A DNA stretch of 64,000 nucleotides from Tribonema minus (lineage: Eukaryota; Sar; Xanthophyceae; Tribonematales; Tribonemataceae), in NCBI GenBank assembly GCA_017506865.1, contig JAFCMP010000511.1, positions 682,001 to 746,000 on the forward strand. Reading direction: 5' to 3'. The notes under the pieces are model-generated. The model had not been told where the DNA came from. It was given only the letters and a program-made list of their open reading frames with translations, and searched no databases. Positions 6,326 to 46,572 of the stretch are shown piece by piece (position 1 is the first letter of the stretch; each line of letters starts with the position of its first letter). The translations under genes were made by a program, and so were the position numbers.

Positions 6326-9300
6326 ATGTACACGCCGGCGATGCGTGCGCTGCCCGCCAAGCTCATGATGGATATACAGCGCGAGCGCGTGGCGCTCATG
6401 CTGGGCGGCGGCGCCAAGGGCAAGGGCTCCGCGGAGGATGACGACGGCGACGACGCTGCGATGGCGCTGGCGCCGTTTGCGAGCGCGGCGCACGGCAAGC
6501 GCGCCAAGGCAGCGCACAGGCCCGGCAAGCAGGTGATTGTGATGTACAGTCTCCCTCTGCAATATGATACTTGCAATTAGCAGACCAGACAGTGCCGATG
6601 AACACAGTGCTGGCGCGCCGTTTTTGACTGATCTGCCTCCACCCCACCCACCCCCTACCCCACCCCTCCTCACCCCCACCTTTTGACAGATCTTCTTGAA
6701 GGGGGCCGCAGCCTTAGCGCCAAGAAGCTGAGCGCTGCCCTGCCCAAGCCCTAACCCCAGTACATCCTAAGGCTCATCACCCCCCCCCCCCCCCCATAAA
6801 CACCCCCCTGCGCAGAAGAACCGCAGTGCGAGTGCCAAGAAGCTGAGCGCTGCCTGCCGAAGCGCGCCAGCCTCGCGCGCAACGCCCCCGCCGCCGCCGG
6901 CGCCAGTGCTGCCGCGCTCGCGCACGCCGGCAAGCGCGCGAGCGCCAACGGCGGAGCGCTGCTGCACGCCGGCCTGTCGCCGCAGGGGTCCTTTGCGTCG
7001 TCGTACAACGGCAGCGGGGGCGGGGGGGCGGAGTTGCTCGGGCACAGGGAGTACAAGGGGGACCTGTTTGGGACGCACGGGACGTACATGGGGGGGATGG
7101 TGTATCTGAGTCGCATGCCCACGGGTGAGAGTGTGTGCTGCGCGAAGGTGTGTTTGCTGGCTATGTTGAGTGCGCAGCGCTAGAGGGGGGGGGGAGTGTT
7201 GCCGGAGTTTTCTTTGTACCTGTGTGCTGCGCGAAGGTGTATGTGTTGTTGTTGTCTGTGGCGGGTGCGAAGCGCCAGAGAAGGGGGGGGGGGGGCAACG
7301 TTGCCGGAATGTTTTGTTTCTCTTGCAGCCTGCAGGTGCAAGTTGACATCTTCACTGGTGTGTGCATGTTGTTTTGCCCTAAACCTGATCTTTGGCGCAA
7401 TGTGAAGTGACCTGGGGGGGGCTTGGACCCACCGGTATTGACCTCGATCATATCACTGGCAGATCTTGCAGAAAAGCGGCAGAAGCTGATTGTTGAAGCT
7501 GATGATACGAAAACGCGTGGGCATTACGCTCAGGGTGACGAGCAGCCTAAAAAGTAGCAGAAACCGTTTCCAGCACAGACCAATGCATGTAACTTCAAAG
7601 TAGCAAGTGCAATGTACATGCACTGATTGTGGAAGCATGTAACAGTTGCCATTTATGTCAACACGGCCTCCACAGGCCAAGGCGGCACATGCTGAGCACG
7701 ATGCAGCATTGCCCAGTAGCATTTGTGAAGAACAAAATCAACCCCTTACCTAATTACTGACCCCGACCCTAAGCCGCAGCACCCTCACCTGCCCCCGTGC
7801 CTTCCCTGCTGCCGCCGCTGCTGCTGCGCGGACTCTGCTGCAACAGCGGGGCAGGCGGCGGCGGACAGGAAGCGCGGCGGGCGCAGCGTAACAGACGACG
7901 GCGACGGCCATGGTGATGCTCAGCACACGTCGTCAACCGAGTACGACAGCGAGGACGGCAGCAGCGTGACGGGCGGCGCGGCGGCGGAGGGGGGGGCGGG
8001 GGGTGTGGGGGGGGGGGGGCGAGGGGGGGGGGAGAAGGGGGACGGGGGCGACCTGGCCCCCGCGATAACTGTCATTGGGGATGAAGGAGACAGGTGTGTG
8101 CTGTGCACATTTGCTATTGACGTGTAATGTCACACTCCGAGTGTGGTTGTCAGTGTTGTCAGTGCGCATTGGGACACTTCTAGAGACGCGCCAAGAGCTT
8201 GTGTGGGCTCTGGTAGCGGCCCAGGCATGGCTTGTCTGGGCTGCATGCCTTGTGTTCTGCGGCCTACACAAGAGAGTCCAATTGGAGAGCACACGTGTGG
8301 ACGCTGTGCACATGTATGCCATGTCGCTAGCTGACTGTGGAGTTTCGGGAACATTGACTAACCCTACCCCTAGCCCTAGCTCTAGATAACCTCAATGCCA
8401 GCACTAACCCATTTACAGCATGAGGCAGCGCTCATACGCTCATCCTAACTCTGAATGCGACGTCAGTGTCATGGTGCTGGCGCGGCACTGACAGTTGCAA
8501 TTCCTGTCATCGGCCAGGAAGGAGACGAGTGTGTATGTAGGGTAAGGGTTAGGGTCAGGGTAAGGTTTACCATTAGGGTTAGGGGCGCAGCAATGGCGCA
8601 TGGCCTCAGCGCACGTCAGGTGCTCAGCCCTAGCCTTGAACCTAGGGTTAGCCACCCCTAGCCCTAGCCCTGAACCTAGGGTTAGCCTCCCCTAGTCCTA
8701 CCCCTCTATCTACCTCTCTGCGTGGAGGGTTTGCTGCTGGTGGTAAGCATCACACCGGTATGCCAATCTGCCCTTGCGGACGATCCATGCACCTTAGCTG
8801 GCCCGCTGACTGACTGTTTTTGACTACCTTTTCTCCATTTGTCATCTTATTCATACCGGTATACATACCGGTACGTTAATCCACCCTTGCAGACGGTCTT
8901 GCCCCTTCGAGCTGGCTCGCCGACCGACTGTTTTCGGAACTCTTTCTTTCCGCTGACGGACTTCTTTCAAAGCACTTTCTCTCCGTCATTTTCCTCCCTC
9001 TGTTGGCGCAGGTACCATGTGCACGATGCGGACGCGGGTCTGAGCGCTGCTGCTGGTGGTGGTGATGCTCAGGGCGGTGCCGCTGCCGCTAAGCGCAGCC
9101 GCCAGAGCAGAGAAATCGCCCCGCAGGTACCTGACCCTAACGCAAATACCTAACCCTAACCCTAACCCTGACCCTACTGTAGCCCCCCCCCCCCCCCTTA
9201 TTGTAGCCCTAATTCTAACCGTAGAGAAATTGCCCTCCCAGGTACTGCGCACCCCTCCCTAACCCTACCCTCACTCTACAGCTTAACCTTTAAAAGCGAT

Positions 9301-12300: not shown

Positions 12301-13378
12301 CCCACCGTCGTCTTCCTGTCGCGCAGCCCCAACACGGCGGCGCGCTGGGCGTGCGTGCGCGCGCTCGCGGCGCTCGCGTGGCTGCCCGCGCCGCGCGCCG
12401 CGCTCGCAGGGATGGACGTCGGCCGCGCCGTCGTCGCCGTCGTCGCGGGCCATGCGGCCGAGCAGCAGCATGCGCTGCAGCAGGCGCAGCAGTCACAGCA
12501 GCAGCAGCAGCAGCAGCAGCGCGCCTCCGCAGCGGACGGTGCAGAGCTCTGCGCTCAGGAGGCAGGCGGCAGCGACGGCGGCGGCGGCAGCGCGGATGAT
12601 GAGGCGACGCCGGAGCTGCACAGGCCGTGCCTCCAGACGTGCGCACGCGCGCTGCTGTACCTGTCCATGGAGCCCGGCTACGCGCTCGCGCTCGTGCGCG
12701 CGGGCTGCATCCCCGCGCTCGCCACGGCGCTCGCCGCGACGACGCCCACAACGCCGCTGGTCGCGGGCCTCGCCGCCGCCGCGCAGCGCCACATGGTGGA
12801 GCACGTGGCGCCGCCGCTGCATGCGCCGCCGGCGCCGCCGCAGCAGGCCGCCGCCGCCGCTGCCGCCGCCGCCCCGTCCTCGGCGGCGGCGCAGCTGCTC
12901 AGGAGCGCCAGCAGCATCGGCGGCAGCGGTGCCCGCTTGGACTATGAGGACGGCAGCGGAGACGACGCGGGCGGCGGCGGCGGCGGCGCTCACAGGATCG
13001 ACGGCGCAGACGCGGCGGCGCTGATCGTGAGCGCCGTGGAAGCGGCGGCGCGCGCGGGCGCCGGCTACGCGCTCTACGACTGCGCCGTCGTCATCTACCG
13101 CCTCGCGCTGCTGGAGCCTGCGGCGGCGGCGCCAGCGCAGCAGCAGCAGCGCCGCGGCGCGCGCGCGGAGCTCGTCGCCGCCGGCGCCGTCGGCGCGCTG
13201 CTGCTGATGGCACGCGCGCAGGACGCGACGGACGCGCTGGTGGGCGCCACGCTGTGCCTGCTGAGCGCTGAGGCGGGCGACAGGGCCGCCGTCGTCGCGG
13301 ACGGTGGCGGCGCGGTGGCGCTCGCGCTGCTGCAGCGGCACGCCCGCGGCGGCGGCGGCGGCGGCGGCAGCAGCAACA

Positions 13379-13410
<32 letters not shown>

Positions 13411-15616: not shown

Positions 15617-16154
15617 GCGTTGTGTGTTGTTGCGGGGCTTGCTCGTCGTGTTGTCCGTGTGAGTGCAGTGGTTCGATGTATGTAGTGTCTTGCAAATGTG
15701 TACATGTATATGGCATTTGATTTGGGCTGCGTTGTGAACAAGGCTGTTGGGGTTCGTGCCTTTTGTGATGTTGTACATGCAGATGACCGTTGCCAGAGTG
15801 TGCCTGCTGTATAATCCATTCATCACTGCAGTAGTGTGCTTGCGTCCTCATTGCATTCGAGCATGCTCTGAAGGGCTGCTTGGAACAGTCAGCATGGCAT
15901 TGTCAGCTCGCATTCAGTGACCCCACTGCATCAGTCAAAGTAAACGTGAGCAGCAAAGCGCCTGTGCAATTGCCATGACCAAGAACCAACTGCTAATAAG
16001 CGCGACAAATTTTGCCATTGTGCGGATTGAGTGCAAGATTCTGCCTTAAGGCGAGCGGACAGCTCATGTTGAAGTTGGTATACACCATTTCAACTGACAC
16101 TCACCGTAGGAAACAACGGCAGGGCACACACACGGCCGAAGCACGAGATAGGCT
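15617..16154. other. Convergent 3' intergenic region
   Basis: Space between the stop of the plus-strand ARM gene and the stop of the minus-strand GH10 gene. No gene seen. It should hold both 3' UTRs. Confidence 0.5.
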
Positions 16155-19100
16155 TCATCTATTACTCTCATGCACCGCAGGCTGTGGCCGAGCAGTTACA
16201 TGGGCAGTTACATTGGCGGTTACATCTACGTACCGCTGCCCCGCCGACCAGTCGGGCTCATCCACAGAGACACCCGCTACAGGACCCGCCCCTGTCCCCC
16301 CTGCTCCCCCCTCCACCGGCTCAGGCAGCATCCAATCGCTGCCCCACAGCTCCTCGCTCCCAAAAGCGGCAGTGGAGAAAGCATCGGGATCCTGCTCTGC
16401 AGCCCCTTCTGCCGCCGCCGCCGCCGCTTCCGCGTTCCGCAGGCCGTTCTCGGAACACGCGGCGCCGCGCAGCGCGCGCCGCACCGCCGCCAGCGCCGGC
16501 TTGGGGCGCCACGCCGCATCCCACAGCAGCGGCCGATCCACGCACTTGTAGAAGTCGTGGCACCACGAGTGCGCATCGCAGAAGCCCCAGAACGTGACCC
16601 CCGTGAAGGCGGGCTGCGCGAGCGCTGCCGCCAGAGTGTCGTGGAAGACGGCGGCGGCGGCGGCGTCACGCTGCGCTAGCCCCAACCCTACTTGCTCGAG
16701 GCCCGCGGCGCGCACGTCCATCTCGGAGATGTTGACGCCGAGGCCCAGGTCTCCGAAGCGCGCGATGTTGCGCGCGACGGAGTGGGGGGTGGGCACGCGT
16801 CGCTGCCCCGTCCCTGCTGCATCGAAGTGCGCCTGCAGCCCCACCTCGTGCAGGGGAACGCCCCGCGCTAGCAGGTCGCGCGAGAGGGCAAAGAGCGCGT
16901 CGGCTTTGGCGCTGCGCCCGCGTGGCAGCCCCGCCCCCTCCCCCTTGTTCTCGTTGAGTATGAGAACCGCGTTAGGGTCGGTGTGGTGCGCGACCCTGAA
17001 GCAGTCGTCGATGTAGGCGGGGCCCAGCTTGCGCAGGAAGGGGGTGTCCGCGAGGCGCCCCGTGGCGTCGGGGTGCAGGGGCTCGTTCACTACGTCCCAG
17101 GCGTAGACCTTGAAGGGGGAGGGGGGGGGGGGGGGGGCACACGGACCGGGAAATAAGTGCAGATGATGATGCCAGCAGTATGATCTATCGACCACGTCCC
17201 AGGCGTAGACTTTGGGGGGGGGGTACACGGACCGAAAATCGGTGTGGGTGCCGATGCGAGATGTGTTGTTGGGCAATGGGTGCTTGCAAGTGCGGGCAGC
17301 TTGCGTGTCATGCCAGTGGTAGTAACTTGGAAAAAAAACTGTGAGTGAGTGGAGATAAGGTGTACAGACCGGAATTGTTGCGGGTGCTGGCGCCAGCCGT
17401 GTGCTTGAGGTGAAATGATGGGCACTACTAGGCGTTGGGCCAGGCGATAGGTGTATGATGCAGCCGGCACTTCAACATGTGGCAATGTATATGTGGCATG
17501 GATATGCACATGGTCATTTGCCCAAATCTTGTCAGTCCGAAGGTGAAGATGGAGGCATCTACGTGACTGGCGGCCATGGAAGGTCGTAACCCTAACCTAA
17601 CCCTAAACCCGTCAGATGCCGCTCACTGCATTCAACCAGGAGTATGGGATAAGTACCCAAACGGCTGTGATGCGTAACGTCTTGTGCAGTTGCTGCACCA
17701 CTATATATAGAGCTGCAGCAACAGTCCACAATGGCAGAACTGGTTTCTTCAGTATTTGGCCATTGTGTTGTCAGTGTTGTGTCAATGCATACAAGTAACC
17801 TATTCCTTGCAAAAACTTCCTTGCACTTCAGTATGCTCTGGCTGCAAGGCCCATTCTCTCTTGAACACCATGTGCCGGGCTGCCCGGTTGTGTAGCACTT
17901 AGGGTTAGGGTTCAACATCGCGCATCGTCCCACAAAACTGCCTGCCGAGACAAACTGTGCAACAAGGCAGCAGGTAGCGCTAGGACTAGGGCAAGTGCTT
18001 GCACCAATACCCATGCATACCTTGCCGAGGCAGTGATTCATGGTGGTCTTGATGTGCTCAAACACCGCCTCCCGCAACCGCGCCTGCGGTGCCTCCTCAA
18101 TCCACTTTGGGCTTGTGACGTGCCACACCAGGGTGTGCCCCTTGACCTTATTGCCGCCCCGTCGCGCCCAGTCTACGATGCGGTCTGACTGCGTGAAGTC
18201 GTAGACTTCGGTGCCGTCGGCGCGCTTTGCGAGCAGCGGCTCCCACTGCGCACGGTGATGAGCAGCATGCAACAGGGTGGGTGGGTGTATGTGTGTGTGA
18301 GAGAGAGGGTCGGGACTAACAGCACGCAACAGGCTGTGTGTGTGTGTGTGTGTGTGTATGTGTGTGTGAGAGAGAGAGGGAGAGAGGGTTGGGATTAGGG
18401 TTAGGGCTAGCTCCCACTGCACACAGTGGTGAGGAGGAACAGAGAGGTAGGAGCTCGTGAATAAAGCTGTGCTGCACCTGTTTGTTTGTCTTGCTTTGCA
18501 AAGGTACTAATGCCAATACTAATGCCAACTGTAGCAGAGAGGTACAGGTAGGTGATTCAGGAGCGAGGAGCAACAGAGAGGTAGGAGCTGGTGAACTGAG
18601 CTGTGTTAGAACTAGCTGTTGTGTTGCGTTGCAAATAGACCAGTGCCGACTGTGGAAGAAAGGTTCAGGTAGGTGATTATTCAACATCTTCCAGTGTGTA
18701 GCATGTGTGAGAGCGCCAGTGTCGCCAATGTAAGCGGCTTGGCTGCGATACAAGAGGGTGTGGTGCAAATGCATCTGTGTCTGTGTGCTGCTGCATTGAA
18801 TCGAAGCTGCAAATACAGCGTGCACTTACAGAACTGGAAAACACCATCGTGATCAGGCCATGTGCTGCCTACTCGTCAGCTGCCTTCTCACACAGTGCAG
18901 TATTTCAAAGTGTTCCCTGACAGGCATGTGGCAAAGTGCACATGCTGTTGAAGTTTAAAATGTTAGTGAACGCCAAGGCTGCAGCTGCTGGAAGGAAGCA
19001 GCAGATGCTGAATGTGAAGCTTACTATGCCCCTGTTGGCAAACTCTATGTATACTTGTTCAGATCCGTGAACCCTACAGGCGGTTGGCAAGAATCACCTC

Positions 19101-19397: not shown

Positions 19398-19434
19398 TTG
19401 AAGTAGGCGAGTCTCTTACTTCAATTTTCCTGCG
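19398..19434. promoter_or_regulatory. 37-bp divergent gap between GH10 and DUF2358 starts
   Basis: The GH10 ATG (minus, 19397) and the first in-frame ATG of the plastid protein (plus, 19435) are separated by 37 bp. A bidirectional promoter must overlap coding sequence, or one start lies further in (for the plastid protein the Met at 19468 is also possible). Confidence 0.55.
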
Positions 19435-21631
19435 ATGTCTGGAGCTCTGCCAATGAGCTGTTGCAACATGGTGAGTCGGCACGCCTGTTCATGGCGGCGG
19501 CCCACGTTGCTGCTCGTGGCGATGTCCATGCTGACGTTGGCGGCTGGCTTTCAAGTACCAGCACCGAGTCATGTTCACAGTGCCTCGTTAGCAGCCCAAA
19601 CCAAACAGGACAGCAGCGACACGGTGTCAGACTACGCGGGCACAGGCGGCATTGCGAAGGGTATCGTGTCTGGCCTCACGAATGCCTTCAATGCCATATC
19701 CCCAGCTAAAGAGGAGGAAGTGGTCGTGAAAGCAGGGAAGCTCTCACCAAGACAGCTGTTCACCGGCATCAAGGAGGACTTCGTGGATAAGCGATACCTA
19801 TGGACAGGACTGATTGACGACAACCTGTACTCCGAGGACTGCCTATTCACCGACCCTACGTTGTCGTTCAGAGGTGAGTATGCCACACACGAACAGGCCA
19901 TTTCTTCGTCTGTCCTGAAGTTAGTCCAGGCAGCCAGTGTCATCTGATCATCAGCCATTTGCTGTGATGAGAACCGCAACATGATACTGTGAGCTGTTGT
20001 CAGGCAAGCGGTGCGCCAGGTTTTTGCCGTATTGGAAACGGCAGCAAAGTATACTTATCTGACCTATTGTATCCCAAGGTTGTCGTACACCGCCTAGTAG
20101 CTTGTATAGATCAGTCCTGATTTCATTGTCAGCTGTTAGCCTACTGAATTCAATGGGGTCGTCACAACTGCATGCTCAGAGTCGTCTTTACGACTCCGCT
20201 CAGACTCCACTCCGGCCAGAGTCGCTGTTGGAGTCACACGATGATTGCACAGCCCTCAAGAGCGGAGACGAAGCCGTTAAAGCGCACAGATCACCACCAC
20301 TCTGCGGAGCGAAGTTGCAGTCACATTTTGTGATAAGCCATAAAATCATGCAGCTCGTGTCGTCACCACTCTCACCTGAGCACTGACACGTGTCTCTCCT
20401 TCTTCTTTCACACAGGGCTCAGCACATGGAAGAAAAATGTGGGCAGCCTGCGGCCACTGGTGAATGCTCTGGTGCCGGAGTTTGGCGTGGACCTGCTGTC
20501 CTGCGAACTCAACGAGGTACGCTTTGTAACTGATGTAACTGTAGCACTCTCTGGGCGGTTGCCTTTATGTATACTTTGATATTTATTTCTGTTGTAATTG
20601 TAGCATTTGCGGGTCTGGCTACTTTTCTTCAATCTTACCGGGACAATTGTGAACGGTTGTCACAGCTCATGCTTGCAAGGGCAACTCAGCGGCCACTGAT
20701 GCTGTGCTGTTGTGTGATATCCTCTGGAGTCTATGGCTCAACCTAGTATTGCAGGCCAAAGCTGGCAGCTGCAGTGGATATTTGGCGCTAATCTCTGTGT
20801 CGGATCCCGTATCATGTACTGCAAGTAGGTAGTGTTGTCAATCGCGGCATGACCTTTGCAGAGACAGTGAGACAGATTTGAGACCTGCGCAGCTCTGGTA
20901 CTTGAAACTCATGGTTCGGCGAGATGCCGACGATACAGAAAAGAGGGCTTAAAGGTAGTGGATGTGCGCGGCGACCAGTTCTTCAACTTCCATTTGAGGT
21001 TTGCTGCTGCTGTCCACTGTATTGTAGACTGTGTATTACTGTGAACTGTGCCATGGAGTCATACATGCATGCCCTCACACCCATTGCCCGTCTCAGAGTA
21101 CGCCCGTGAACGACATGCGCCTCGCAGAAGGAAAAGCTGGCGCGTGTGGGGCTACTCACCATGTACATATTTGGGGGTGCAAATACGTCAAACATTGTGT
21201 CTCATATTTGACTGCGCCCTCCATGTTGTGGTCTTAACATTCGCCTGCGCTCGCACGCGAGGTCCGCAGAAGGAGAAGTGCGTACGCTCGCACTGACACT
21301 GTGGGGCTGCTCACCATTTACACACCTGCAACTGCGAATACGTCAAACATATTATATCACGTATGACGGCACCCTTGTTGTTGTGGTCACAACATTCGCC
21401 ACCGCTCGCACGCGCGCGCTGCAGAAGGAAAAGTGCGTGCGCGCGCGCTGGCGCATGTGGGGCTACATCAAGCTCCCATGGCAGCCGGCGGTGGACGTCA
21501 TAGGGCGTACTCGTTTCACCTATGACCCCGCAGAGGGCAACCGCGTCGTGGACTACTTTGAGACGTGGGAGCTGCCCGCAGGAGAGGCGCTCATGCAGCT
21601 GGTCACGCCGGGCAAGCGGCGCCAGCAATGA
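19435..21631 (+). CDS. DUF2358-like protein with bipartite plastid-targeting leader, three exons
   Basis: Exons 19435-19873, 20416-20516 and 21425-21631 join with matching phases (1, then 0) into 248 aa. The N-terminus has a basic patch, a hydrophobic signal core (LLLVAMSMLTLAA) and then GFQVPAPSH, resembling the signal cleavage site with following Phe ('ASAFAP') of proteins imported into red secondary plastids. The mature part has the DUF2358 signature: LSPRQLFTGIKEDFVDKRYL then WTG, LYSEDCLFTDPTLSF, a central helix (LRPLVNALVPEFG), and a C-terminal RARWRMWGYIKLPWQP, GRTRFTYD, VVDYFETWEL. This domain, in plants and algae, belongs to small SnoaL/NTF2-like plastid proteins of unknown chemistry. 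Intron 2 holds two decayed copies of the exon 3 head, and the gene's tail is tandemly copied after the stop. Confidence 0.87.
21118..21470 (+). repeat. Three tandem ~145-bp units, the last containing a functional exon head
   Basis: Units begin near 21120, 21262 and 21418. Each has (G)CAGAAGGA(A/G)AAG, then G.GTGTGGGGCTAC/GCTC-like sequence, then GCAAATACGTCAAACAT (units 1 and 2) and AACATTCGCC...GCTCGCACGCG before the next unit. The third unit is the real exon 3 of the DUF2358-like gene. The first two carry stops or breaks. Confidence 0.85.
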
Positions 21632-21870: not shown

Positions 21871-22032
21871 TAGCAAGAGGGCGCATGGGCTGTGTACTGC
21901 GTGTGGCCACAACACCCCCATGTTTTTGATACGTCCTTGGCAGATTTTGACACAATTTACATGTAGTGCACCTGACAGGACGATCACACAGCGGGCAATT
22001 ACACGGTCGAGCCTTGCAAATACCATCCCCAA

Positions 22033-25000
22033 TTATCTACGGGAACTGCGCTTTTGACGATGTTGCAAGCGCACCGAGCGCTGCTGCTTGCGCGCCTGCC
22101 TGCCATGCAATGCGCTATGTGTGCCTGTGCGGGAATCACTAATATCATCATCGCCGTCTGCATGTATGCTACGTGCCCTCGCTTCGCCCATCATGTAGGC
22201 GAGCGTTGCCACGCTGTTGGAGTCGCTGTCTTCCTCCGCATGTGCTGTGTGCTGAGTGCCTCGTACCTGCACGTCATCATGACTATTGTCGACAACACGA
22301 GCGGTTTCGGTGGTGGAAACGGCGGGTACTGCTGCGGCGGCAGTCACAGGTGCCTGTGCCTGCACACTGGCGGCAACATTGTCCTTTCTTCGCGTTTTCT
22401 GCACGGACGCACTGCGCAACGGCGGCATGCTTGCAGGCGTGCTGCAGCTATAGAGGCTGGTGAGCTCACTACTGCCAAAAGCGGACAGCCCGAGCGGATC
22501 CATCGCTGCTGCCGCCTCGCCCAGTAACACCACACTTTCACCCCCACCATCCCCTTGCAGCAGCGACAGCACTTGCTCATCGCCATCGCCGCCGCCAACT
22601 TCAACTTCAAGGCCACCATCTTCCGCTTGCCGCTGACCCCATGGCGTGCAGTCATCACCCCCATCTTGAGACGTTGGCTGCTCGCGTACTGGCACACCCA
22701 TCTCTGCCTCGTCTCGAGCCACCAGCCATGTTGTTGGCAGACGGCCCAACAGATCAGCGCAGTGCTCAGCACACGGCGCGCTGTCGCCGAGCGCGCTGAC
22801 TGCACTGACGCGGTAGACGACTGTCGCGCCATGCTGAGCGATGGCTTTAAGTTGAAGTTGAGTCATTGTGGACAGCGGAGCGTCCACGCAGTGCGGCACG
22901 GGCACGGTGCGCAGCTGCTGCCACTTGTCGCCGCCGATGCGCCTGCGTGGAGTGTGGTCGCAGAAGTTTAGTTGCAGCTTTGCTCGTGTGAGTACATAGT
23001 GAGTGAAGCAAGGTGTGGTTGTTGTACGCAGATAAACCTGAATGGCGGACACCTGTGGCGAGCCGTGCACTGAGTGGCAGAACGTGCCAGGCGATGACAC
23101 TTAACCTGAGTGATGGTGCTGGATGGGCGGTCTGCATTAGCTGACAATGCGGCAAGGATTCATCCAACATTTTATATGCCAGCAGTCGACACATGTGGTC
23201 TGATACTGTACAGCCACAGCACCCCCTGAAACTGCGCTGCTGTCTTAACATGTGTAAAAAGTGCACCAACTCTGCACGGCCAGCGCATCTCTGCAAGGCA
23301 GCATTTGCCAGCAAACCCAAAATGTGCCGGTGCCATGCGCCAAGTCAATACCTTCAAATACTGTGAAGGACACTCTACCCTCAACTTCAACTTCAAGTTC
23401 AACTGCACAAACGCGACCCACCTGTCCACCCGATACGAGACAGCGTGCGGCCCGTTGGCGCAGCTCGGACTCCACCTTAGCGAGAATAAATAAAAAGTAT
23501 ACACACCCTTAACTTCAACTTTGTTCGTGGTCAACTTAACAAGCGCCACTCACCTGTCCACCCTATACGACACAGCATGCGGCCCGTTGGCGCAGCTGGG
23601 AGTCCAACTCAGCGACACCAGCGGATGGGGCCTCCACAGCGCGTGTGTCGACGCAAGCGTCATATGCTTAGGGTCAACTTCAACTTGATGCATAGTAAAA
23701 TTCACAAACGCCACTCACCTGTCCACCCTGTACGAGACGGCGTGCGGCCCGTTGGCGCAGCTGGGACGCCACCGCAGTGACACCAGCGGATGTGGCCTCC
23801 CCAGCGCGTGTGTCGACGCAATCGTCTTACAATCCTGTGCCTGCGCCACTGGCACGCCGCCGGAGTAGGGCGTATGTATGTATGTATGAAGGTGGTGCTT
23901 TGGTGACACAGCGAGGGCGCCCGTGTTTGCGGATGTTGCGCTGTTGTGGACTGTGTGTTTTGAACTGGTGGATGTTGTGCTGTTATGGACTGTGTGTTTC
24001 GGACTGGTGGGAATAGCTGGTGCCAGGGACGATGATGCTACCACGGTGAGGTGCAGTCCCGAGGGCACATCCGGCACTGCAGAGACACGAGCCGAAAGAG
24101 AGAGGGGGCGTTTGATGAATATTGACAGCACATTCCATGGGTGGTTGATGTATACATTCATGTGCAATTCAGATGTGGCAACTGGCAACTCGTCTGTGAA
24201 TCATGTAGGGTTGTTGGAATCGTGAATTTTTGGAAATTCAAGTCGTAAATCGTAATCGTAACGTAACGTACCGTAATCGTAAGCCGTAAAAATGCTGCTA
24301 ATTGTAAATCTTAATCGTAACATAAGTATGCCGTAATCGTAAATAGTAAAAGCCGTAAATGTCGTAAATGAGCTCAAAAATGAGGTTTTTTGTAATATGT
24401 GCACCCCCCGACCTCAACTCAGATATGGTTCACACATCAGGATCAATGTAACATGGTGAAGGACAATTATTATGTCTATTGCTTCAGAGCAGTACAGAGA
24501 GACCACCGTGAACATGTGCTGGCGAAGCCCTGAGCTCAATCTGGGCCTGTCATGCGGTCGTTTGGGGTACCCCAGCATCGTTCTTGCCGGAGTGACAGTA
24601 AGAAGTGTTAGCCGTAGTGTTTGCATCTAGCAGCCGCCTTCCTTTTGCAAGCTCGCCCGCACCAAGTCCCGCTCTGCTTTTGCGGTGTAAGCTTAAGCGT
24701 TGTGCGCTTACATGCACATCAGCAAGTACTTGTTCCGCAACGCAAAGAAGCTCGTCGGCGCACGCTGTCCAACAGCGTTGCACCTTCATTGCATCATCGC
24801 CACCAGTCACATGCAGCACTGCACCTGCACTCTCTTTCTCTCCCCGCACAACTTCACTTCAACCTGATTTTTGAGGGTGCGTGTGCAGAGAAAAAAACGA
24901 GAAACACGCTAGACTAGCAGGCTACTACCTACTACATATATACAGTATATGCCGCAAGTTACGGCGCCGGCACCGTAACTTAATGGAACCGTAACTTACG

Positions 25001-26318: not shown

Positions 26319-26350
<32 letters not shown>

Positions 26351-31166: not shown

Positions 31167-31202
<36 letters not shown>

Positions 31203-32264: not shown

Positions 32265-35200
32265 ATGAGCAACAGTAGAACGGCAGATGCAGACTCCACT
32301 GCAGTCGGCGATGCTGCCGGTTCAGGCAACATTCAGAGCAGCAGCGAAGTTAACAATGGTGGTGTGAGATCGCCAGCACAGGAGCAGACGGACGGAAGCT
32401 CTGTCGGCATGTCGTGGACAGCTATGCTCACCTGTGGCATCAAAGGCGAATTCAACGGCACCCTGCACACATTTGCGGCAGGGCCTCAAGCGCCAGAGGC
32501 AGATGGCGCAGCCGTGGGATTCGACCGATGGGCGAGGGTCAGGGAGCAGGGCGAAGATATTGAGACTGCAGAGGTGCTGAGGCAAAGAGCAAGCAGGGTG
32601 GCAGCCAAGTCGGCGCTGCTTGGCGAGCCGTACATTGCTGAATTATCTGCTGCCCCATCTGATGACCACGGGACGCAATCGCAACCGGGTGCTTTTCCTG
32701 ATGCTGCCGCGGCTGGCGATGAGGCCAGCTTTGCAGCCGCAGCTGAAGTTGAAGCAGAGACAGCTGCAGCGCTAATTCCAGTGGAGGTGGTAAGTTGCAG
32801 ACAATGACGTTCCTAACGTGTATAGTCCATAGAGAATGCAAGCAGTGACAACGCAGGCAGCGCTAGTATTGTGCTTGCCACCTGTCATGCCGCATGAACG
32901 AGACCCAGAACTGAAGCCTTTCGAGTTAGAACAAGAGGTAGTCCAGGGGCCCACTGCAGTATCACTGCATGAAGCTACGTGCACGCGCTCCATGCACACC
33001 AAGCAGCATGGGATATGACTCCTGTTGTACAGTTGCAGTATTGAGAAAGAAAGACTACGCACAGTGCTGCTGCAGCAAAAGCCTGAGTAATGAGGGTAGC
33101 AACTGCGTGCATCATCAACATCGCGCATGGTGCACAGGCACAGTAGCCTGTGAGTAGGTGACAGCAGCCATTGCATTGACATTTCATACAATGGCGTCAT
33201 TGCCTGCAGAAAATGGTGCCGACAGTGTCGGCCTTGCTTACCAGCTGCATTTATGCCTCACACGCAGAAGTCACAATAGGAATCAACAAGCGGGGATGAC
33301 GCTGTTCATGAATTAAGAAACCCTTCAGCAAAGCGCAGCATGTTCTTTTCCGTTTTCCGCCACTACGTAATATACCATTTAATATCGTGGCTTGCTTTTA
33401 TCAGCGCATAGTGGGCTTCAACGTGTTGCTGTTGCCCATTGACAAAACTAGCTATGGTGCAACAGCCTTGTACACCTCCACTGCAGGCTGCATGCCATCA
33501 GACCTTGCACTGGCTTATGCACCTGCCAGCAGTTCATAGTACCTAATGGCCACTGTCTGTCAGCGGCTGCTGAGCGATCCCTTGCAACTGTTGCTGCTGC
33601 TGCTGCTGTGGTGACTCTCTTTCACACGCAGCCCCTGGACGAGCACACCTTTGTGATCGATGAGGAGGACTGCCCAGCAACGTCACCTCTTGAAGTTGAA
33701 TCACAAGCGGAGCACTGTCACGATGACCTTGGTCCCCTGCCGGCGCGCACTGAGAGCCGGCCTGCTAGCGGGCGGCAGACAAGGCGCCAGAGCGATGCGC
33801 AGCCAGTCAACACCGTGGAAACGGCGTTTCTCAGCCTCATGCGGCAGCTGGAGAGCACCATCACCAAGGCGTCAGAGGTGAGTGTTGTTGAAGTTTGGAT
33901 GTTGAAGTGAACGTGCTTGCCAGGGTGTCAGCGTCGTGATTCATGAAAAGGGTCAGGGATGGGTACTATCGGGGCAGTAATGTCACCTTATGCAAACCAT
34001 TCGCTCATCGAGGATGTTCCAGTTGTGAGTGAGGGTTTGATACTTCTGAAGCACCAGTTGTATCATTCCTATCTATTGCATAGTCAGGCAGACCCCCCCC
34101 CACCCCCCTGCCCTCCATGCATACCCCTCTACTCTCACCCCCTTGCCCTATCTCATCAGCTCGGTGCCTCTTACGCCCAACCCCCACGCTCAGGACCTGT
34201 CAGCGCAGCTGCGCGGCGGCTCGGACGACCTCGCCGCACGCGCCGCCGCCGCAGCCGCTGCCACCGCCACGGCGCTGCGCCGCCTGCACGCCGAGCGCGC
34301 GCGCGCCACGCGCACATGGCTCATACGCCATCGCGGCGGCTTCGACGATCGCGCAATCGAAGACTTCATCAGCGCTCAGGAGGCGGCGGAGGCGGCGCGG
34401 CGCGGCGCGGTGGCGGCGGCGTTCGAGGCGCAGTGCGGCGCGTGCGCGGCGGCGGGGGAGGCGCTGGCGGCGGCGGCGGCGGCGGCGTTCGACGCGCAGC
34501 TGGAGAGGGCGGCGGCGGAGTGCCGCGCGCACTTTGCGTGGGCGCGGCGGCAGCACCGCGGCCAGCTGGAGGTGGTGCGCCAGGCGAGCCGCGTGGAGCT
34601 CCAAGGTGGGGTGATGCTTTGGGGGGGGGTTGCTGTACAGTAGTGGGGGGGGCGGGGGGGGGCATGCTAGGCGCAGAGCTTCAGGGTAGAGAGGATGCTA
34701 GGGAAGGCGCGGGGAGACGGCGAAGCGTGTTTGTGTGTGTGCAAGTGCGTGTGCGCGTGCGTGTGCTAGTCATCGCGGCAATGATGGTGAAGGCCTCTGT
34801 ACGGCAACACCACAATGCCTGCGCAGCTTCTCACGTCCATGAATGCAGGGGGGCGGCGCATCTCGAGCAGCACAGCAGCGCTGCGCCACTGTCAAAGGCG
34901 GTGCCGACAAGCACTCAACTTCAACTTCAATCTGTTCCCCAGAGACACTCCTGCTGGACAAGTTTTAAATGACTGCCGCAGGACGAGAAGCTTGGGCATG
35001 AAACACCCGATTTCAATGTACCGACTTCAACCTTCCCACTTGAACTTCTTCCACCCCGTCAGGGACGCTCCTGCTGGACAAGTGCCTGATTGCCGCAGGA
35101 CAAAAAGCTCATGCGCTAGATAAAAACACCCAACTTCAAGTCACCAACTTCAACCTTCTCACTTGAACTTATTGTGCCCCGTCAGAGACGCTTTTGCTGG

Positions 35201-38200
35201 ACAAGTGCCTCATGGCGGAGGCGTGGCTGCAGGACGAGAAGCGCGCGCACATGGATAAACAAACTTCAACTCACCAACTTCAACTCACCAACTTCAACCT
35301 TCCCACTTCAACTTCTATCATTCATCAGAGACGCTCCTGCTCGACAAGTGCCTGATGGCGGAGGCGCGGCTGCAGGACGAGAAGCGCGCGCGCAGGCGCG
35401 ACACCGCCATCGCAGTGCGCCACGGCGAGGAGCTGGGCGCGCTGCGGCACCAGCTGGAGCGCGCGCAGCAGCAGCTCGAGATGGCCAACGTGCTCCGCGT
35501 GCGCGCAGGTGCGTGTAGGTTAGTGTTAGGGTTGGGGTTAGGGTTAGGGTTAGCCTGGAGATGGCCAACGTGCTGCGCGTGCGCGCAGGTGCGTGCTCTC
35601 AGCAAAAAGAAGCGACTATTGTGCGCGCAGCAGCAGCTGGAGATGGCCAACGTGCTACGCGTGCGCGCAGGTGCGCGCTCTCAACGACAAGAAGTGAATA
35701 AATTGTGCAGTGCTTGTGCAAGAGCAGCAACAGTCCTGACGCAAGGTGGGAACAGTACTGAACTGGTGCTGGACCAGTCCATGGTTGACTAGGACTGTGA
35801 ATGTGGAACTCCCACTGTGATTAAATCTTTGCAATATCACTTCTTTGCAAACCCAGCCTGTCCTGGTTAAGTGCTGTTCTGCACTCCTGCATTGGGCCCG
35901 CCTTGGGGCTTTTAGTGCGTTGGGCCCACCTTGGGGTTTTTAGTGTGCCACATTGTTTACTGCCGTCAAGATACATACTCATTGCGCAATGATCTATCTT
36001 TCAGTCTCAGAAGCAATTCATGAATCGATAGTTGTCTCCCCGTACTGTGCTGCACTGCTGCACTGTGTAGGGCCAGCTCATGCAAATGTGCGCAGGCCAG
36101 AACTGTGCAGCTCCATTCCAATTCCCTCTGAAACCATGCCACCGTCAAGAGGCGCAATCCCAGCCGCTCACGGGGTATGCAGGTATGTCCATAGGCATAC
36201 CTAGCTGCCGTGCAGCTCAAAACCCTTTTTTGAACCCCTACCGCAGACTCATTGTCCCGCCGTTCCAGCGCTGGCGCTTCAGAGACCACCTTGCACAAGC
36301 ACGGCACCGTATTGTGCACCACCTCGTGTACATACCAACTTTAATCCCATGCTCCATAGCCCCCCCCCCCCCCCCCCCCCCCGCACCTGGTCCACCCATC
36401 AACTTCAACACCCCCCCCCCCTCCCCAAATATCACTTCACCCCCACCCCTCCCCCCTCTTCCCCTCTCGCTACGAGGCAGAGACCGCCGCCGCCGCCGCG
36501 ACGCAGCAGGCCAAGGCGCTGGAGCAGTCTCTGCAGGCCGCCATGCAGGCGCACGCCGCTGCGGTGGCAGCCGCCAAGTCTGCCTCCGCCGCAGCAGGCA
36601 GCCGCGACAGCAGCATGGCAGCGCGGCAGTCGCTGCGGCGCGGCGTGGGGCTCGTGCGCGCCGGCGGCGGCGGCGGCGGCGCGCGCACCATGATCTGGCG
36701 CGCGCCCATAGAGGTCGCGCGAGGGGCGGCGGCGGCAGCGGCGCCAGGCGCAGCCCTTCTCTGCGGTGCGCCGCAGCAGCAGCAGCAGCAGCGGCAGACC
36801 GCTGGAGCCGCGCTGGCGGCGGCAGCGGCGGCGGGCCGCACGCTGCTGCCGGCGCCGAGCGCGAGCGCCGCGGGGGACGCTGCTGTCAAGCCGCTGAGCA
36901 CTACTGCTGCTGCTGCTGCTGCCGCGAGTCCGGTGGGCCGTGGCGCTGCTGCTGCTGCTGCTGCTGCGACAAGTCCTGTGGGGCGCGGCGGCCGGGCCAC
37001 GCTCATGCAGACGGCGGGCCTCTGGCAGCCCAGGGCGGCGCAGCAGCAGCTGCCGCCGCCGCGCGAAACGGCGGAGGAAGTGCCAGGCAGCGCTCAGGTC
37101 ACAACTTCAAGTGGTGACGCTCAGCGATCGCCACCAGGGTCCGCTCGGGATGGCTGCGGCGGCGACAGCGCAGCGGCAGCGGCGGCGCGACCGACTCCGC
37201 TGCTGAGCGTTGCTGCGGGTCAGCAGACGCAGCAGCAGCAGCGCGCGCGCAGTACAGTGGCTATTGCAGGGTCGAGCGGCAGACGGGGAGCGCCGCTGGT
37301 GCCGCTGTCCCCTGGGGTGGGTACAACGTCAGGCGCTCGCCTTCAACTTCAACATGCAGAAGTTCAACAAGCGGCGACGCACGCCGCGGCGTCGCCGCCG
37401 GCTGCTGCTCAGCAGGAGTCAACGCCGCCGCTGCCACGCACGCAGTCCGTTACGCAGCCAGAGAGTTATCTCGCAAATGCGGCAGCGGCAGCGCCGGCAG
37501 CGACCGCACCTGCTGCCGCAGCCGCTGCCGCTGCCTCCAAGAGGCAGCGCGTCGCGCCCTCCGCGGCGGCGGCAGCGGCGATGCCAACGCGCCTAGAAGA
37601 GGGCGATGAATCTGACGAAGGGCCGGCAGAGGGGGGGCAGCACAGCAAGCGCAAGAGCACGTCACCCAAGCGAAAGTCAGCGGCGCCGGTGGCGGCGGCG
37701 GCGACGGCGACGGCGGCGGCTGCGGCGGCGGCGGCGGTGGCAGCACCCGCTGCTGCTGCTGCAGGCGCCGCGCCGATGGCGTGCTTGAGCTACATGCCGG
37801 ATCTGGTGCTGCAGGTCGTGCAGCAGACCCTGCGGCATGGTGCTGAGGTGTGTATGTACATTGTATGTACATGTTTATGTATGTGAAGCATGTATGCATA
37901 TACACATGTATGTATGTATTACAAGTATGTATGCATGTACTTGAAGCATGTACTTGAAGAATGTACATGTGTATCTTTGAAGTGCTTATGTATGCATGTA
38001 TGTATGCATGTATGTGTGTGTATGTATGTATGTGTGTAGTGTTCATGTATGGCAACACTCAGGCAGCGTCTGCCTGACAGGCCCAGCAATGAGGGTCTGT
38101 GCATGTACATCATTTGTGATATGTGCAGCCCACTTTCGCCGCATTGTTAGGGAGGGCAGGGGCGGGCGGACGAATAGGGAAGAGCTGCTGAGCTGCGGGC

Positions 38201-41200
38201 CACGCTTGTGATGCAGGATGCCTGTGTTGCCAGAAAGAGAAGGGCTAGCAGTGATGGTGTAATGTCCTCTTGTGCTTGCTCGTATCTCGTTTATAATTCG
38301 TCTCCGTGATGCCGCTGCTGTAGTGTCAGCACGGCACCAGAGCGCCATCCGCTGACGTTGACAGCGTTGTGAAATGGGGGGCATGGAAGTTATAAAACCA
38401 ACTGTTGAAGTCAACTGTTGAAGTTCACTCCACGTCGACTTGAGCTTCTGTGTTAATTTTGCACTGCCACACTGAAATCTTGCCTGCATTTGACAATCTA
38501 CCGCACACTCTACCGCTACAGTACTGCCACACAGCACCACACAGCATACTTCACTTCATTTCAAATCTTGTTCAAACCGCTGGTGAACCCCTGACAGGAC
38601 TTGAAGCATGGCGAAAGCTTCAACAGCGAGAACAGGAAGCGAGCTGGCAGCTCTCCAAAGGGGGAAGATGCCAGAAGGAGGGCAGACAACTCGCCTAAAG
38701 GTGCGTCCATTTACTTTCAGTGCCCACTGCTAACGGCTACTGTTGCTGTGTGACCAAACCCTTGTGTTGAAGACAACCCTACCTCCAGATGCAGACCTAG
38801 GGTTAGGGTTAGGCTAGGGTTAGGGTTAGGCTGCCTACGGTCACCTCAAAGACCGCAATTACAAGATCACAAGCAGAAACTAGCATCGCCCACATTACCT
38901 TCCATGAACACGAACGTGGTGTCCATGTCAGGATGAGCTCATGCAGACTCGCGCCAGGTGAAGAATAAAGGTGGGAAGCAAAGGCGTGCAGCATTCACAA
39001 AAGTTGTCCAGGTTCGTTCCTCATGTGAGTCACTCAATGATGATTCACACTCCCAAACTCGTAGTCCACTACTGACATGAGTGATTGTGTGCAGCAATGC
39101 GCTACAGCTCCCTTTCCAGGGCTATGGCTAGACCTCCTGCGCCAATCAGATTTGTAGGCGAGTTGTTGCTCCACACAGCAGTAGGCAGCGTGTATTTGCA
39201 GTGGTTCGCGGCCACTTTCTCAGGGTGATGGAAAGTGTTCAGATAGTGGCAATGCCTGATTGACCTCATGTAAGCATACATGCGCACAGCACAGCAGCCC
39301 ACCAATGCGTTCAAACGTGCGCCCTGCACATGGCACATGTACGGCTGGGCAACAAGCATGAATGGGACATGAACGAGGGCAAGGTGACAGCAGGGAGCTC
39401 TTAATGAAGCTGTTCACAACGTACAAGAGGCAACCTTGAAACCAGAAACTTCATGCGAACTCGCAACCCCACTTCAACTGCTCAATACATTATTCTCCTG
39501 CGGGCCAGCATCAAATGAGTTGACAACCCCACTTCAACCGTTCAACTGTTGATCTCCTGCAGGCCAGCACCGGAGGCCTCATCACCTGAACCGCTCCGCC
39601 TCTGGCACGAGCGAACGGTCACTAGGCGGCAGCGACGGCAGCATCATGGCACTGGATCACGCGGGCGGGCGCGTGATGCAAGTCATGTACAAACTGTGGA
39701 AGCAAAAACACGCGCGGCTACAGGTGAGCAGGCGAAGAGTAAGTTCAACTTTGACTTCAACGCTTGCATGCCGTAGGGCCCTACTTGCGCACATGTTGAG
39801 CGGTGTGGCAGTCTAACCCAAAGTGCCCAACTCCCCACGCGCGTGTTCCATTGTGTTGTTCATTACTACGTTAGTTCCCCTCCTGTTCTGCGGGGGTGCC
39901 CCTGCATCTTGATTGGCCAGGTGCGAAGTGAGAAGGTGACAACTTCAACAAATGTGGACACATGTTTTGAATGAGGTCGTGCACCACCTCTTCACCCACA
40001 GTGCGCTCTTCACACCAAGACATCTGACCGCAAGGAGGGTTAGGGTTAGGGTTAGGGTTAGGGTTAGGGTTAGGGTGATGACGGCGGCCTGAACTTTGAA
40101 CTGTGAACTGAATCGTCGCTGCGTTTGATGGAGTTCAATCACAGTTAGACGTGCTCAAGAGCAGCTAGATAATTAATGTCGCGGAGGGGAGGCGGAGCAC
40201 ACGCTTGCATTTACCCTGACCCTGACCCTGACCCTCATCCTAATCCTGAGCTTCAATGGTCGTTGAATTCAGCCAGCGCGACGCAACAGTTGCATGCACG
40301 CTGGTGGGACAAACCTCACCCTAACCCTAACCCCAACTCTGACTCTAACCCTAACCCTAACCCATAGGCACACATAACATGTGAGATGGCGGCGCACACA
40401 TGACACTGCTCATCACCAGTGGCGATCCGCATACTGACCCACCATAACCCTAACCCTAACCCTATATATATACATAAATGCCTTTTGCCCTCTGCGCTAT
40501 GTTACATGCTCGTTGCGCAGGCGATGCTTGACGAGGAGAGGGAGAAGCACGCCTCAATGCAGAAGCGCTTGAAGTCCTCGGAGACCATGGTGCTGGCGCT
40601 GGCGGGGAACACGCCTGTCCGTCCTACAAGCGCTGGGGCGCTGTCCGACTCGTTGAACAAGTCGAGTCGTCCACAAGTGAGTTGTGTGTGTGTTTTGGCA
40701 AACGCACTCGCACTTGGCTGTAGACTGCTGAAGCTCAAGTATTCTGAGATACATGTTGAAGTATGTGGATCTCCATGTCTAGTGTGCTGGCGGGGAACAC
40801 GCCTGTGCGTCCTACAAGCGCTGGGGCGCTGTTTGACTCGCTGAACAAGTCGAATCGTCCACACGTGAGTCGTGTGTTCTGGCAGACGCGTGCGCACCTG
40901 GCTGTAGAGCCGTGAAGCTCCCAAAGTACATATGGAAGTACATGTTGAAGTACACGGGTCTGTGTAGTGCATGCAACGGCTGTCGACAGTCACGCTTGCG
41001 TACAAATCGGTACGATAGGTCTCTTTCCTTATAATGCGGGAAGAATGCACGTTTTCGGTAGTAGTCACTGCATTGTTGGAATCACTGCAGCAGCTGTCAG
41101 CATCTGCATACCGTAAATCACGGGGTATAAGGCAGTGCCTCTGTATAAAAAACGGGTATCTCATTACGGCGTATAAGACACCCGTTTCTTATAACATTTT

Positions 41201-43210: not shown

Positions 43211-44219
43211 CACGTTTCGAGGTGGCTGTTGGGGTGCGACGTGTCTCCGTAGAAGCGCGTTGTGCAAAGCATGTCACTGATATGCATCACACCATCAAAT
43301 TGCACACATGACACACTGGGATGTTGAGCACTGATTTCAGCGGTTGCCGTGGTTCACAGTTGCCAATGCATGCATGCTCATTGCATGCTTTTCTCTTGCT
43401 TTCCCTGCGATACGGCACTGTTGTTAGAACAAGCAACTTGCAATTCAAGTTGATGAAGCAATGCGCTCATGCGTTCCTAGCAGAAGTGGGTAAAACAATC
43501 TACTTAGAAGTAAAAGTATGACAAAGCACAATCGCTTGCAAGGCAGCCCTCTTTACAGGGTGCAATAGCATGCAATGACGCAATACTCAAGTCAGAGCTC
43601 CACAGCAACACTCGCAGTGCTCTACGCGAGGCACCCACAAAAGCCATATACCGCAATGCCATGTGCTGCATGCCATGCCTCCAGAGGACTCCAAACTACA
43701 GGCCTTGCAGACATCAGAAAGCAGCAGCGCAGCAGGACAAACATACTAGAAACATTGTCACGTATTTACATTTACTGTCGACATCGCAGATCAACGCACC
43801 CAGTCTCCTTACATCATGCTATCATTACACATGTACTACAAACCTGCGCTGCGCAGTGGTCGCAGTCAGTGTATTCACACAAATTGAGCCTATGTTTACC
43901 GCACTACGCGATGCCGTGAACTTGCATACTTTGAAGTATGTATCTCGCTGCGAGCCCATGCTCTGTATTGTTAGCGCCGAAACTGAAACCTGGATTGGCC
44001 AACAGGCCTTTGTGTGCAACATCCACTCGCACGCTGTGGCGGGCAGGCATATATAGTAGTGCTGCATACATGCTACGTGGTGAAAATGCAGCAGGCCTTG
44101 GCCTTTGTTGAAGTTCATGCGTGCAGCAGCGCACAGCAGATTGGTGCACACAGCGCCAGCATCCTGCGGAAGCGACTGCCATTATAATGACTGAAGCAAA
44201 GCGCAAGTAACCAGCCACA
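43211..44219. other. Convergent intergenic region, about 1 kb
   Basis: Lies between the stop of the plus-strand coiled-coil gene and the stop of the minus-strand gene at 44220. I see no supported gene or repeat. Confidence 0.5.
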
Positions 44220-46572
44220 CTAAGTAGAAGCACTGCCGCCGCTGCTGGACTGCCGAGCCTCCGCTGCAATGGCTTCCAGCTTCTTGTGCACCGCAGCCTT
44301 GACTGGGTCCAGAGACTGCCCCGCAATCCACCTGCCAAGGCGGAGAGTCACAGGCCACGGAGAGGTACACATCAGCATTGCACTTGCACTTGAAGCTACA
44401 ATGTTGACAGAGGAAGTTGCACTTGAAATTACAGCACAGGAGGACTCGCCAATGCCCGCTGCTTGAAGATTGCCACAAGCCCATGGTAGGCTTGTGGCAC
44501 GTCACACATCACAACAGTGCAGGCATCGCCGTCAGTGTCTACTGTTTACTGCACAAAAAAGAAATGTCCATTGCGTAGTTGTTGATGTTACGAGCGTGTT
44601 GTGCCGAAGGCAGCCAAGAGTCCGCAGGCCTGGTGCTGTGCGGTAGCCTGACAAATACGAGCAGGGGGGGGGGGGGGGGTGCATGTGTGTAGACAAGTGC
44701 GGTTGACAACGCTGATCAAGACGGGACATACGACTGTATCCTCGATGCCACGAGACCTGGCACAAATTAACCTGCCATACATACCCTACATACGCCTGAG
44801 CACTGACCTGGCACAAGGTACACCGCTCATGACCCGCGACCCCATGCCCATACATACATACATACCCTGCATAGTAGACGCGTGAGCACTGACCTGGCAA
44901 AGGGCACGCCGCTCATCACGCGCACGCCTGAGCGCACGCGCACGTGGCAGGACGTGGGCGAGTCTGGCAGAGAGAGACGTGAGGTGAAAGCGAGCAGCAG
45001 CATTCAGCACTTGCGTGGGTATGTACGTATGCGGTATCGGCAGCGCTCAGCACTTGTGAGGTACTTTTTGGAGTAAGTAAGTACTGCATTGCAGCACTTG
45101 TGTGGGGTATGTATGCATGAGGTATCAGCAGCTAGCAGCACTCGTGAGGTATGTACGCATGAGGGTTTTTCAATCACCACATGCACAACATATATCTCTT
45201 CTTTCAAAGTTCAGCATAAGTTCACCTTGCTGAACGTCCCACACCGCCGCCACCTCTATGACCCTCATCCTGGAGAAGCCCGGCAACTTCATGATGAAGT
45301 TGTCGACGTCGCTGAACGTCAAGTTGCGGTTGGTGACGCTCACGGCGCCGTCGCCGCCGTCGTAAACGTCCTTGACGTCCTGAACCTTCTCAATGTCGCT
45401 CGTGAAGCCGTACATCTGCGGCGTGGTCATCTGGTACTTGGCGACACGGCGGTGCTGCAGCGGCTGCGCAATGTCGGGAGACCCCGCTGCATGCGCGCCT
45501 GCAACACAAGTGTCGACAGAGTTATTGGCACATGTATGTACTTCTATGTATGTGTGGATGCTTCATGGGCAGAAAACAGCTTCGTGCCCTTGAGGTCTGT
45601 GCCGCCGAGTAGGTGGATAAGCACCTGTCACACAAAAATGTAGATGATGTTGTCATGAAATTGCTGCAAGAGCCGAACTCTGTGCGCACGTGGAGGGTTT
45701 GATGTGCGTGCATGTGACATCAGCGTGTTGTGAAACTCAGCAACTGCAATCAGCACGAAATTGCTCTCAAAGACTATTTCTGTGTGCACGTGGAGGGTTT
45801 GATGTGCGTCATGTGACATCAGCACACTGCAGAACTCGGCATGTGACATGAGCAATTGTGTAACTCGACGACTGCAGTCAGTGCCTTGCTTGATGTACAT
45901 GCCCTCATCACAAAGCCGTATGCTGCTCATTGCGGCTGAGCTGCGACTGGCCACTGCAATGGTGGGATGGCGCACAGCAATAATGATGCTGCATGGTCCT
46001 GGGTTGGCGAGAAAGCAACATCGCAACTCCGCAAGGGGAAGTGGGTCATAACACTGCACATTCAGATTTCAATGGGACGACTCACAAGCGTAAGTGCTTC
46101 TACGTAATATATATGTGAGATGAAATGTGCCGCTTCCACGTGGCAAGCTGATTTCCGCAAGAGCATTGGCGGCTTGGTTATCGGCTCTGCACTAGACTTA
46201 TGCTCTTGATCAAATAAGTCAGACACTCGAGCGACGCAGCGAAACAGCACTGCCGCCAGCGCTGAAGCAAGCTGATTCTGAGCGCGCAACACCTGTCAGG
46301 ATCGCAGCTTGGTTGTCAGCTTCTTGCGTGGCGGCGCCAACACCATTCACCGCAGGTGCAGCAGACCAGTCAGACACGCTGAAACTGTAAAGCTGGCCTC
46401 CTGTCGCCTTCAGTCCCTCCTCTACGCCCTGTTTCAGCAGCTCAGGACTCAGCACGGATCTGAGAAAGGGCTCCACTCCGAATTCAAAGACAGCATCAAT
46501 CACGCTATCGGTCAGCGGCACGTCCTCCTCTACGGGCACGGACTTGGTGGGCTGCTGCTTGGACCACCACAT
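44220..46572 (-). CDS. Unrecognised multi-exon gene
   Basis: Clear exons: 46572-46293 (starts MWWSKQQPTKSVPVEEDVPL), 45498-45226, 44963-44894, 44331-44220 (stop). The last three join with matching phases (1, then 2). At least one more exon lies between 46293 and 45498, perhaps near 45627-45570 (VLIHLLGGTDLKGTK). The third clear block reads MTTPQMYGFTSDIEKVQDVK, then a Gly-Asp turn, NLTFSDVDNFIMKLPGFSRM, VIEVAAVWDVQQ; the end is VPFARWIAGQSLDPVKAAVH plus a helical tail. There are no transmembrane segments or known catalytic motifs that I can name. Mixed composition and conserved-looking blocks say it is a real gene. A ~100-bp direct repeat (45681-45830) and copies of the 44894 donor edge lie in its introns. 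Confidence 0.62.
44750..44930 (-). repeat. Copies of an exon 3' edge plus donor in an intron
   Basis: On the minus strand ATGAGCGG(C/T)GT(G/A)CC(C)TTTG(T)CCAG|GTCAGTGCTCA occurs at about 44925-44885 (the exon used above) and 44835-44800, with a shorter remnant (TGTGCCAG|GTCTCG) near 44770-44750. ACATACATACC-type sequence separates them. Confidence 0.8.
45670..45860 (-). repeat. ~100-bp tandem repeat in an intron
   Basis: CTGTG(T/C)GCACGTGGAGGGTT plus TGATGTGCGT and ATGTGACATCAGC occur at about 45681-45725 and 45780-45826, with a weaker third echo to 45860. On the minus strand each copy ends in an acceptor-like CGTGC.CACAG. Confidence 0.8.

Follow-up and report, generated by a model that had tools for sequence, protein, structure and literature searches.

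Tandem genomic duplication is recognised as a class of intron gain (PMC3443670, citing Hellsten 2011 and Gao and Lynch 2009). In the potato RdRp gene, an intron was gained by tandem duplication over an intron-exon boundary, and the new spliced intron was demonstrated with RNA reads and relatives (PMC4974935). Small tandem duplications also arise in mouse and human cells when break ends are filled in by CST and Pol alpha-primase (PMC8355091), and Introners, copies of an element in many genes, add intron sequence repeatedly within one genome (PMC9860276). Here, we analyse a window of 64,000 nucleotides from Tribonema minus (64 kb of a single contig, JAFCMP010000511.1, positions 682,001 to 746,000, in a genome of 158 Mb and 554 contigs), in which introns carry diverged tandem copies of the adjoining exon ends. 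We consider it probable, at roughly 0.77, that short direct tandem duplications arise across the whole genome and persist where selection allows, and that the process is not specific to exons.

The duplicated segment in potato RdRp, like those in Tribonema, consists of an intron tail, an acceptor and an exon start, and a second, 83-bp duplication within one of that gene's introns adds to the likeness (PMC4974935). The Tribonema arrays differ in that their extra copies appear unused and in that they recur at many loci of one genome. A boundary duplication was thus known in one potato gene; what is notable here is the recurrence across sampled loci. Direct tandem duplication with AGGT-like splice signals is common to Tribonema and the general class of intron gain, but in that model the interior of an exon is duplicated and an intron created, whereas in Tribonema existing introns appear to have been lengthened (PMC3443670). 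Break-repair duplications are local and direct, as in Tribonema, and are called abundant in genomes; the Tribonema units (median about 134 bp), however, are mostly too diverged for their junctions to be read (PMC8355091). Introners share with Tribonema the repeated addition of intron sequence, but they are element copies, whereas 70 of 72 Tribonema units have no match elsewhere in our sample (PMC9860276). Among the matches listed, which cover few subscription journals, a literature search returned no report of such tandem duplications in Tribonema.

The sample comprised twenty 10-kb loci of the same genome and the window, 264 kb in all. The loci are not strictly random: 12 positions were chosen by the author across contigs before their sequence was seen (two lie on the contig of the window), and the other eight were picked among the first 20 of a script-drawn list. 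Three loci (L004, L005 and L017), at first taken as possibly bacterial, were omitted from some counts, leaving 17 loci and the window (72 arrays, 234 kb; hereafter the reduced sample). Because a dispersed repeat was found on contigs C1 and C2, the main counts were redone with all 20 loci (76 arrays); the counts of orientation, splice dinucleotides, introns, junction motifs and dispersed matches refer to the reduced sample. Exons were predicted ab initio with a coding model trained on the sample, L004 being left out of the training.

Local arrays of direct repeats are frequent: 76 in 264 kb (0.29 per kb), with 62 in the loci and 14 in the window, against 0, 0, 0, 0 and 1 in five rounds of shuffling, and only three of the 20 loci have none. 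The initial annotation, made on the window, had suggested a genome-wide process, and this recurrence across the sampled loci supports it. Array periods range from 62 to 474 bp (median 133.5) and the median identity is 79%, with a range of 66–99% over the 72 arrays of the reduced sample. Direct pairs in the reduced sample number 112 at spacings below 300 bp, 45 at 300–600 bp and nine at 600–900 bp, with few further apart; within 600 bp, five inverted pairs compare with 157 direct ones. The duplication process is local and direct in orientation, and it shares these features and its short units with break-repair duplications. Copies abut or overlap in 33 of 72 arrays and lie within 20 bp of each other in six more. 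A dispersed element of the Introner kind was rejected as the source of 70 of 72 units, just two having a match elsewhere in the 234 kb. The first of these, L009:3937-4074, is part of a dispersed repeat that has at least 46 genome matches, itself included, and the other matches through a telomere-like tract. The dispersed repeat itself measures about 140–160 bp (L009:3937-4275), and a fragment of it lies at 58322-58373 of the window.

Within the window, the reported exon-edge copies are real at all 12 places. Each derived pair was aligned over short, defined segments, and its score was set against those of 1000 first-order Markov shuffles in which both members were randomised; 17 of 17 pairs scored above every shuffle, the weakest (9109/9223, 20 of 22 positions identical) narrowly so, with a score of 28 against a null maximum of 26. 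A second control, 400 random pairs of 75 x 80 bp segments at similar spacings, whose background includes real duplications, placed the 95% quantile at 26 and the 98% quantile at 40. Thirteen of the 17 pairs exceed 40, and the four weakest (8069, 9109, 18239 and the 21145/21300 piece; scores 28–34) fall between the two quantiles. Chance similarity and low complexity are ruled out by the pair shuffles together with the array shuffles, with caution for these four pairs. Self-blastn of the window recovered the larger of the listed pairs and also unlisted ones, some without a predicted exon edge. Of the 14 window arrays at 50 bits or more, four cover an edge predicted by the coding model and three more (23377, 40598 and 44776) an edge read from the sequence only.

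The exon edges are firm in the GH10 gene on the minus strand, where both exons have Pfam matches and the spliced protein is a 100% match to the annotated T. minus protein P0001, which joins at both edges and skips the copies. The main GH10 exon start with its acceptor (17089..17123) has a copy in the upstream intron at 17191..17223 (30/33 identical, 0/1000 shuffles as high), and the preceding exon start with its acceptor (18239..18265) has one in its own upstream intron at 18410..18436 (23/27 identical, 0/1000). Also on the minus strand, an exon end and its donor are present in three copies at 23377..23829 (106/121 identical at 23530/23695), and a 98-bp array, unlisted in the initial annotation, covers the end of a SHIPPO-repeat exon at 2743..3049. 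The coding model places exon edges at 3001, 21398, 35328 and 35505 within arrays; the exons at 9109, 23377, 40598 and 44776 were placed by reading.

The remaining copies lie on the plus strand. A diverged copy of an exon start at 6716..6749 is identical at 31/33 positions (0/1000) to the start region at 6831..6863 (model exon 6842-7123). An exon end with donor at 8069..8099 (model exon 7759-8063) recurs in the next intron at 8504..8534 (25/31, 0/1000), and another, uncalled by the model, at 9109..9130 recurs at 9223..9245, the pair near its null maximum described above (0/1000). At 21145..21464, a 155-bp tandem unit of intron and exon start, found by self-blastn and the pair test, ends in an exon read as starting at 21425, whose DUF2358 match is weak (18.2 bits, below the Pfam cut-off of 24.3); the array as a whole is firm, and the best short match for 21120/21262 lies about 20 bp within the exon, away from the acceptor. 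At 34940..35394, an exon start and its acceptor occur four times (64/70 identical at 35182/35325, above all 1000 shuffles), the last copy, from 35325 on, being continuous with the exon body, and the end of the same exon with its donor is present in three copies at 35461..35708 (39/41 identical at 35475/35555). Two copies of an exon start and upstream intron tail lie at 39466..39569 (36/44, 0/1000), next to an exon (39598-39672) whose model score of 13 is under the cut used in the counts. Two copies of an exon end, donor and following intron lie at 40598..40952 (85/92 identical at 40598/40786; 82% over the whole array) and two of an exon start region at 44776..44923 (54/62).

Two details noted or expected for these copies fared less well. 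Loss of splice bases is not typical: judged by the dinucleotide nearest the predicted edge, which is not always the true site, donors are kept in 11 of 16 partner copies and acceptors in five of six, compared with 137 of 199 in the control, and CAG is retained in all four copies at 34940-35325. Splice dinucleotides are neither specially retained nor purged in partner copies. Divergence graded by distance holds in one of four multi-copy arrays (identities of 0.91, 0.84 and 0.81 relative to 35325) and is not clear in the others.

A further claim was that introns are assembled from exon edges as such. Counting a point as spanned when a copy covers it with 15 bp on either side, copies span 27 of 242 predicted edges (11.2%), 14961 of 175484 non-coding positions (8.5%) and 2350 of 63499 exon-interior positions (3.7%) in the full sample. 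The edge to non-coding ratio is 1.31 (confidence interval 0.81–2.06) and drops to 1.08 and then 0.67 as the exon score required is raised; all intervals include 1, so that copies are largely as common away from edges, the outcome that the initial annotation had named as refuting its reading, and the edges do not stand out as a target. The exon-interior to non-coding ratio is 0.43 (0.23–0.72). In the reduced sample, copy coverage outside exons, taken in 100-bp bins from the edge, starts at 0.13, 0.16, 0.13 and 0.13; it has no peak at the edge and stays at 0.10–0.13 out to 1000 bp from exons. Among 27 predicted edges spanned in the reduced sample, the donor side predominates, with 19 exon ends and eight exon starts.

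Several observations weigh against a genome-wide process filtered by selection. First, 24 of 76 arrays cover a predicted edge, compared with 15.0 expected by circular shift, and only nine of 2000 shifts gave as many. Together with the presence of copies at 12 of 12 reported places and the point estimate of 1.31, this excess favours a process directed to exon edges, in which splice-site sequence or a co-transcriptional structure would favour exon ends and introns would be built from them. We read the excess instead as depletion from exon interiors combined with a longer time over which a pair can be recognised when selection holds one member: circular shifts also put arrays into exons, where fewer real ones are found, and constraint on one member slows the divergence of the pair. 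With a ratio whose intervals include 1 and which itself falls towards or below 1 under stricter exon calls, with flat coverage outside exons, and with some arrays lying between exons without any edge within (for example the tandem pairs at 7132..7319 and 8751..8934 on the plus strand, from self-blastn and the coding model), an edge-directed process appears unlikely. Exon edges do not clearly emerge as hot spots, and the data are still compatible with a modest real preference. Second, ab initio calls miss short exons and overshoot at GH10, where the exon is called from 17255, 147 bp beyond the annotated start at 17108 and across a copy, which makes edge counts and codon frames uncertain. Third, in some of the apparently unused exon copies (stubs) the differences lie mainly at third codon positions (0, 2 and 7 at the three positions in L013:1606). 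Fourth, in 33 of 72 arrays a gap of over 20 bp separates the copies of the best pair, so that some arrays are not neat tandems. Finally, young pairs are few: successive 5% identity bins from 65 to 100% hold 5, 15, 19, 14, 13, 8 and 2 pairs, which a steady process would not predict unless assembly had collapsed young copies. The shortage (two pairs at 95% or more, 19 at 75–80%) may reflect an old burst or such a collapse.

A second alternative is that selection retains the copies because they serve as exon ends or splice sites, either alternative or mutually exclusive. Divergence at codon positions 1 and 2, relative to intron, is expected to be half if one copy drifts, far lower if both code and equal if neither is constrained. 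With one pair per array, and omitting pairs whose partner is at least 25% predicted exon, mismatches in 22 edge arrays amount to 31/376, 38/376 and 60/372 at codon positions 1, 2 and 3 and to 483/2670 in the intron parts, giving ratios to intron of 0.51 (0.36–0.68) for positions 1 and 2 and 0.89 (0.63–1.15) for position 3. The pooled ratio, well over the level expected of two coding copies, fits one working and one drifting copy and argues against most copies being used exons; single arrays hold too few changes to be judged alone. Tandem duplication and decay of the extra copies are supported. In addition, array periods modulo 3 (28/24/24) do not favour multiples of 3, the confirmed copies in the window are exon fragments with one splice site, and P0001 omits both GH10 stubs. 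Although splice dinucleotides persist in most copies, a few arrays differ mostly at third positions and one frame (35259-35789) runs open across exon-end copies one and three, general use as alternative exons, as had been proposed, is very unlikely. To judge from codon positions, a few stubs may be used. The frame just mentioned, whose two copies are 162 bp apart, would also permit a longer reading.

Introns appear to have grown. In 45 introns between adjacent predicted exons of the reduced sample, tandem copies occupy 4444 of 30239 bp (14.7%). Arrays are present in 17 of the 45, with a median length of 729 with and 464.5 without an array, although longer introns also offer arrays more room. 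Intron growth by tandem duplication, which the initial annotation had suggested, is supported, with 14.7% of intron length in recognisable copies. The other possibility that it named, intron gain through tandem duplication, is very unlikely despite units that contain acceptors, donors and AGGT-like junctions and an anatomically similar case in potato (PMC4974935), since similarity between donor and acceptor flanks exceeds the 99.9% null in only two of 45 introns and neither is a clean example, one owing its similarity to a copied donor region and the other to an offset 33-bp repeat.

The preferred explanation, genome-wide duplication under selection, may be set out as follows. Tribonema minus would long have been producing short (about 60–470 bp) direct tandem duplications across its genome, which would survive in introns, in spacers and at the ends of exons, but more rarely in exon interiors. 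Where a unit lies across an exon edge, one of the copies would remain attached to the exon body and stay functional, while the other would become an unused stub with a spare splice site in a longer intron, drifting neutrally; splicing would presumably ignore most such stubs. The units may arise by fill-in of staggered breaks and end joining, or by slippage. Fill-in with end joining is proposed because the neat tandem structure of many arrays and their direct orientation fit it, and slippage is also compatible with the data. Paired nicks and patch repair have been studied in plants. Among the 72 best pairs, only two reach 95% identity, which limits the reading of junction microhomology. The most similar pair in the sample, a 318-bp tandem duplication at L012:4022-4658 with 99% identity, has copies overlapping by 1 base.

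Sequence motifs at the copy boundaries give slight indications at most. A AACTTCAAC tract lies within 20 bp of a boundary in eight of 72 arrays compared with 3.7 expected (9/300 shuffles as high), and a looser form in 19 compared with 13.5 (22/300); as four motifs were tested together, a causal role for these tracts at junctions is no more than suggested. Telomere-like tracts show no enrichment at the boundaries of the 72 arrays (2 compared with 3.8 expected), nor are runs of C or G clearly so (7 compared with 4.9). In general, AACTTCAAC tracts are common across the reduced sample, and telomere-like TTAGGG/CCCTAA tracts occur in introns and spacers of the window at 9128-9176, 35518-35553, 38797-38832, 40036-40076 and 40314-40363.

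Domain searches identified in the window SHIPPO repeats, an ARMC5-like ARM protein, the main and preceding GH10 exons, a reverse transcriptase, RNase H and an integrase. The last three belong to a retroelement at 59045-64000, which we take from its domain order to be Ty3/gypsy-like and which contains a 99-bp tandem array at 61887-62223. Protein searches returned no annotated model named as T. minus for the coiled-coil gene and none for the ARM gene, for which the one match had 33% identity over 23% of the query. The three matches of a kinase gene in L024 all fall in one open frame, leaving no intron for testing.

With about 0.3 recognisable arrays per kb, many of them over splice sites and in varied stages of decay, Tribonema offers a natural series for studies of intron lengthening and of how the splicing machinery copes with duplicate splice sites. 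The arrays are also a warning for gene finders, as the coding model stretched a GH10 exon over its stub. More tentatively, short tandem duplication could possibly be a main source of intron length in Tribonema, and perhaps in its brown-algal relatives; such genomes would keep spare splice sites and exon stubs, of which a small fraction might be recruited, and the state that precedes intron gain would be visible in many stages.

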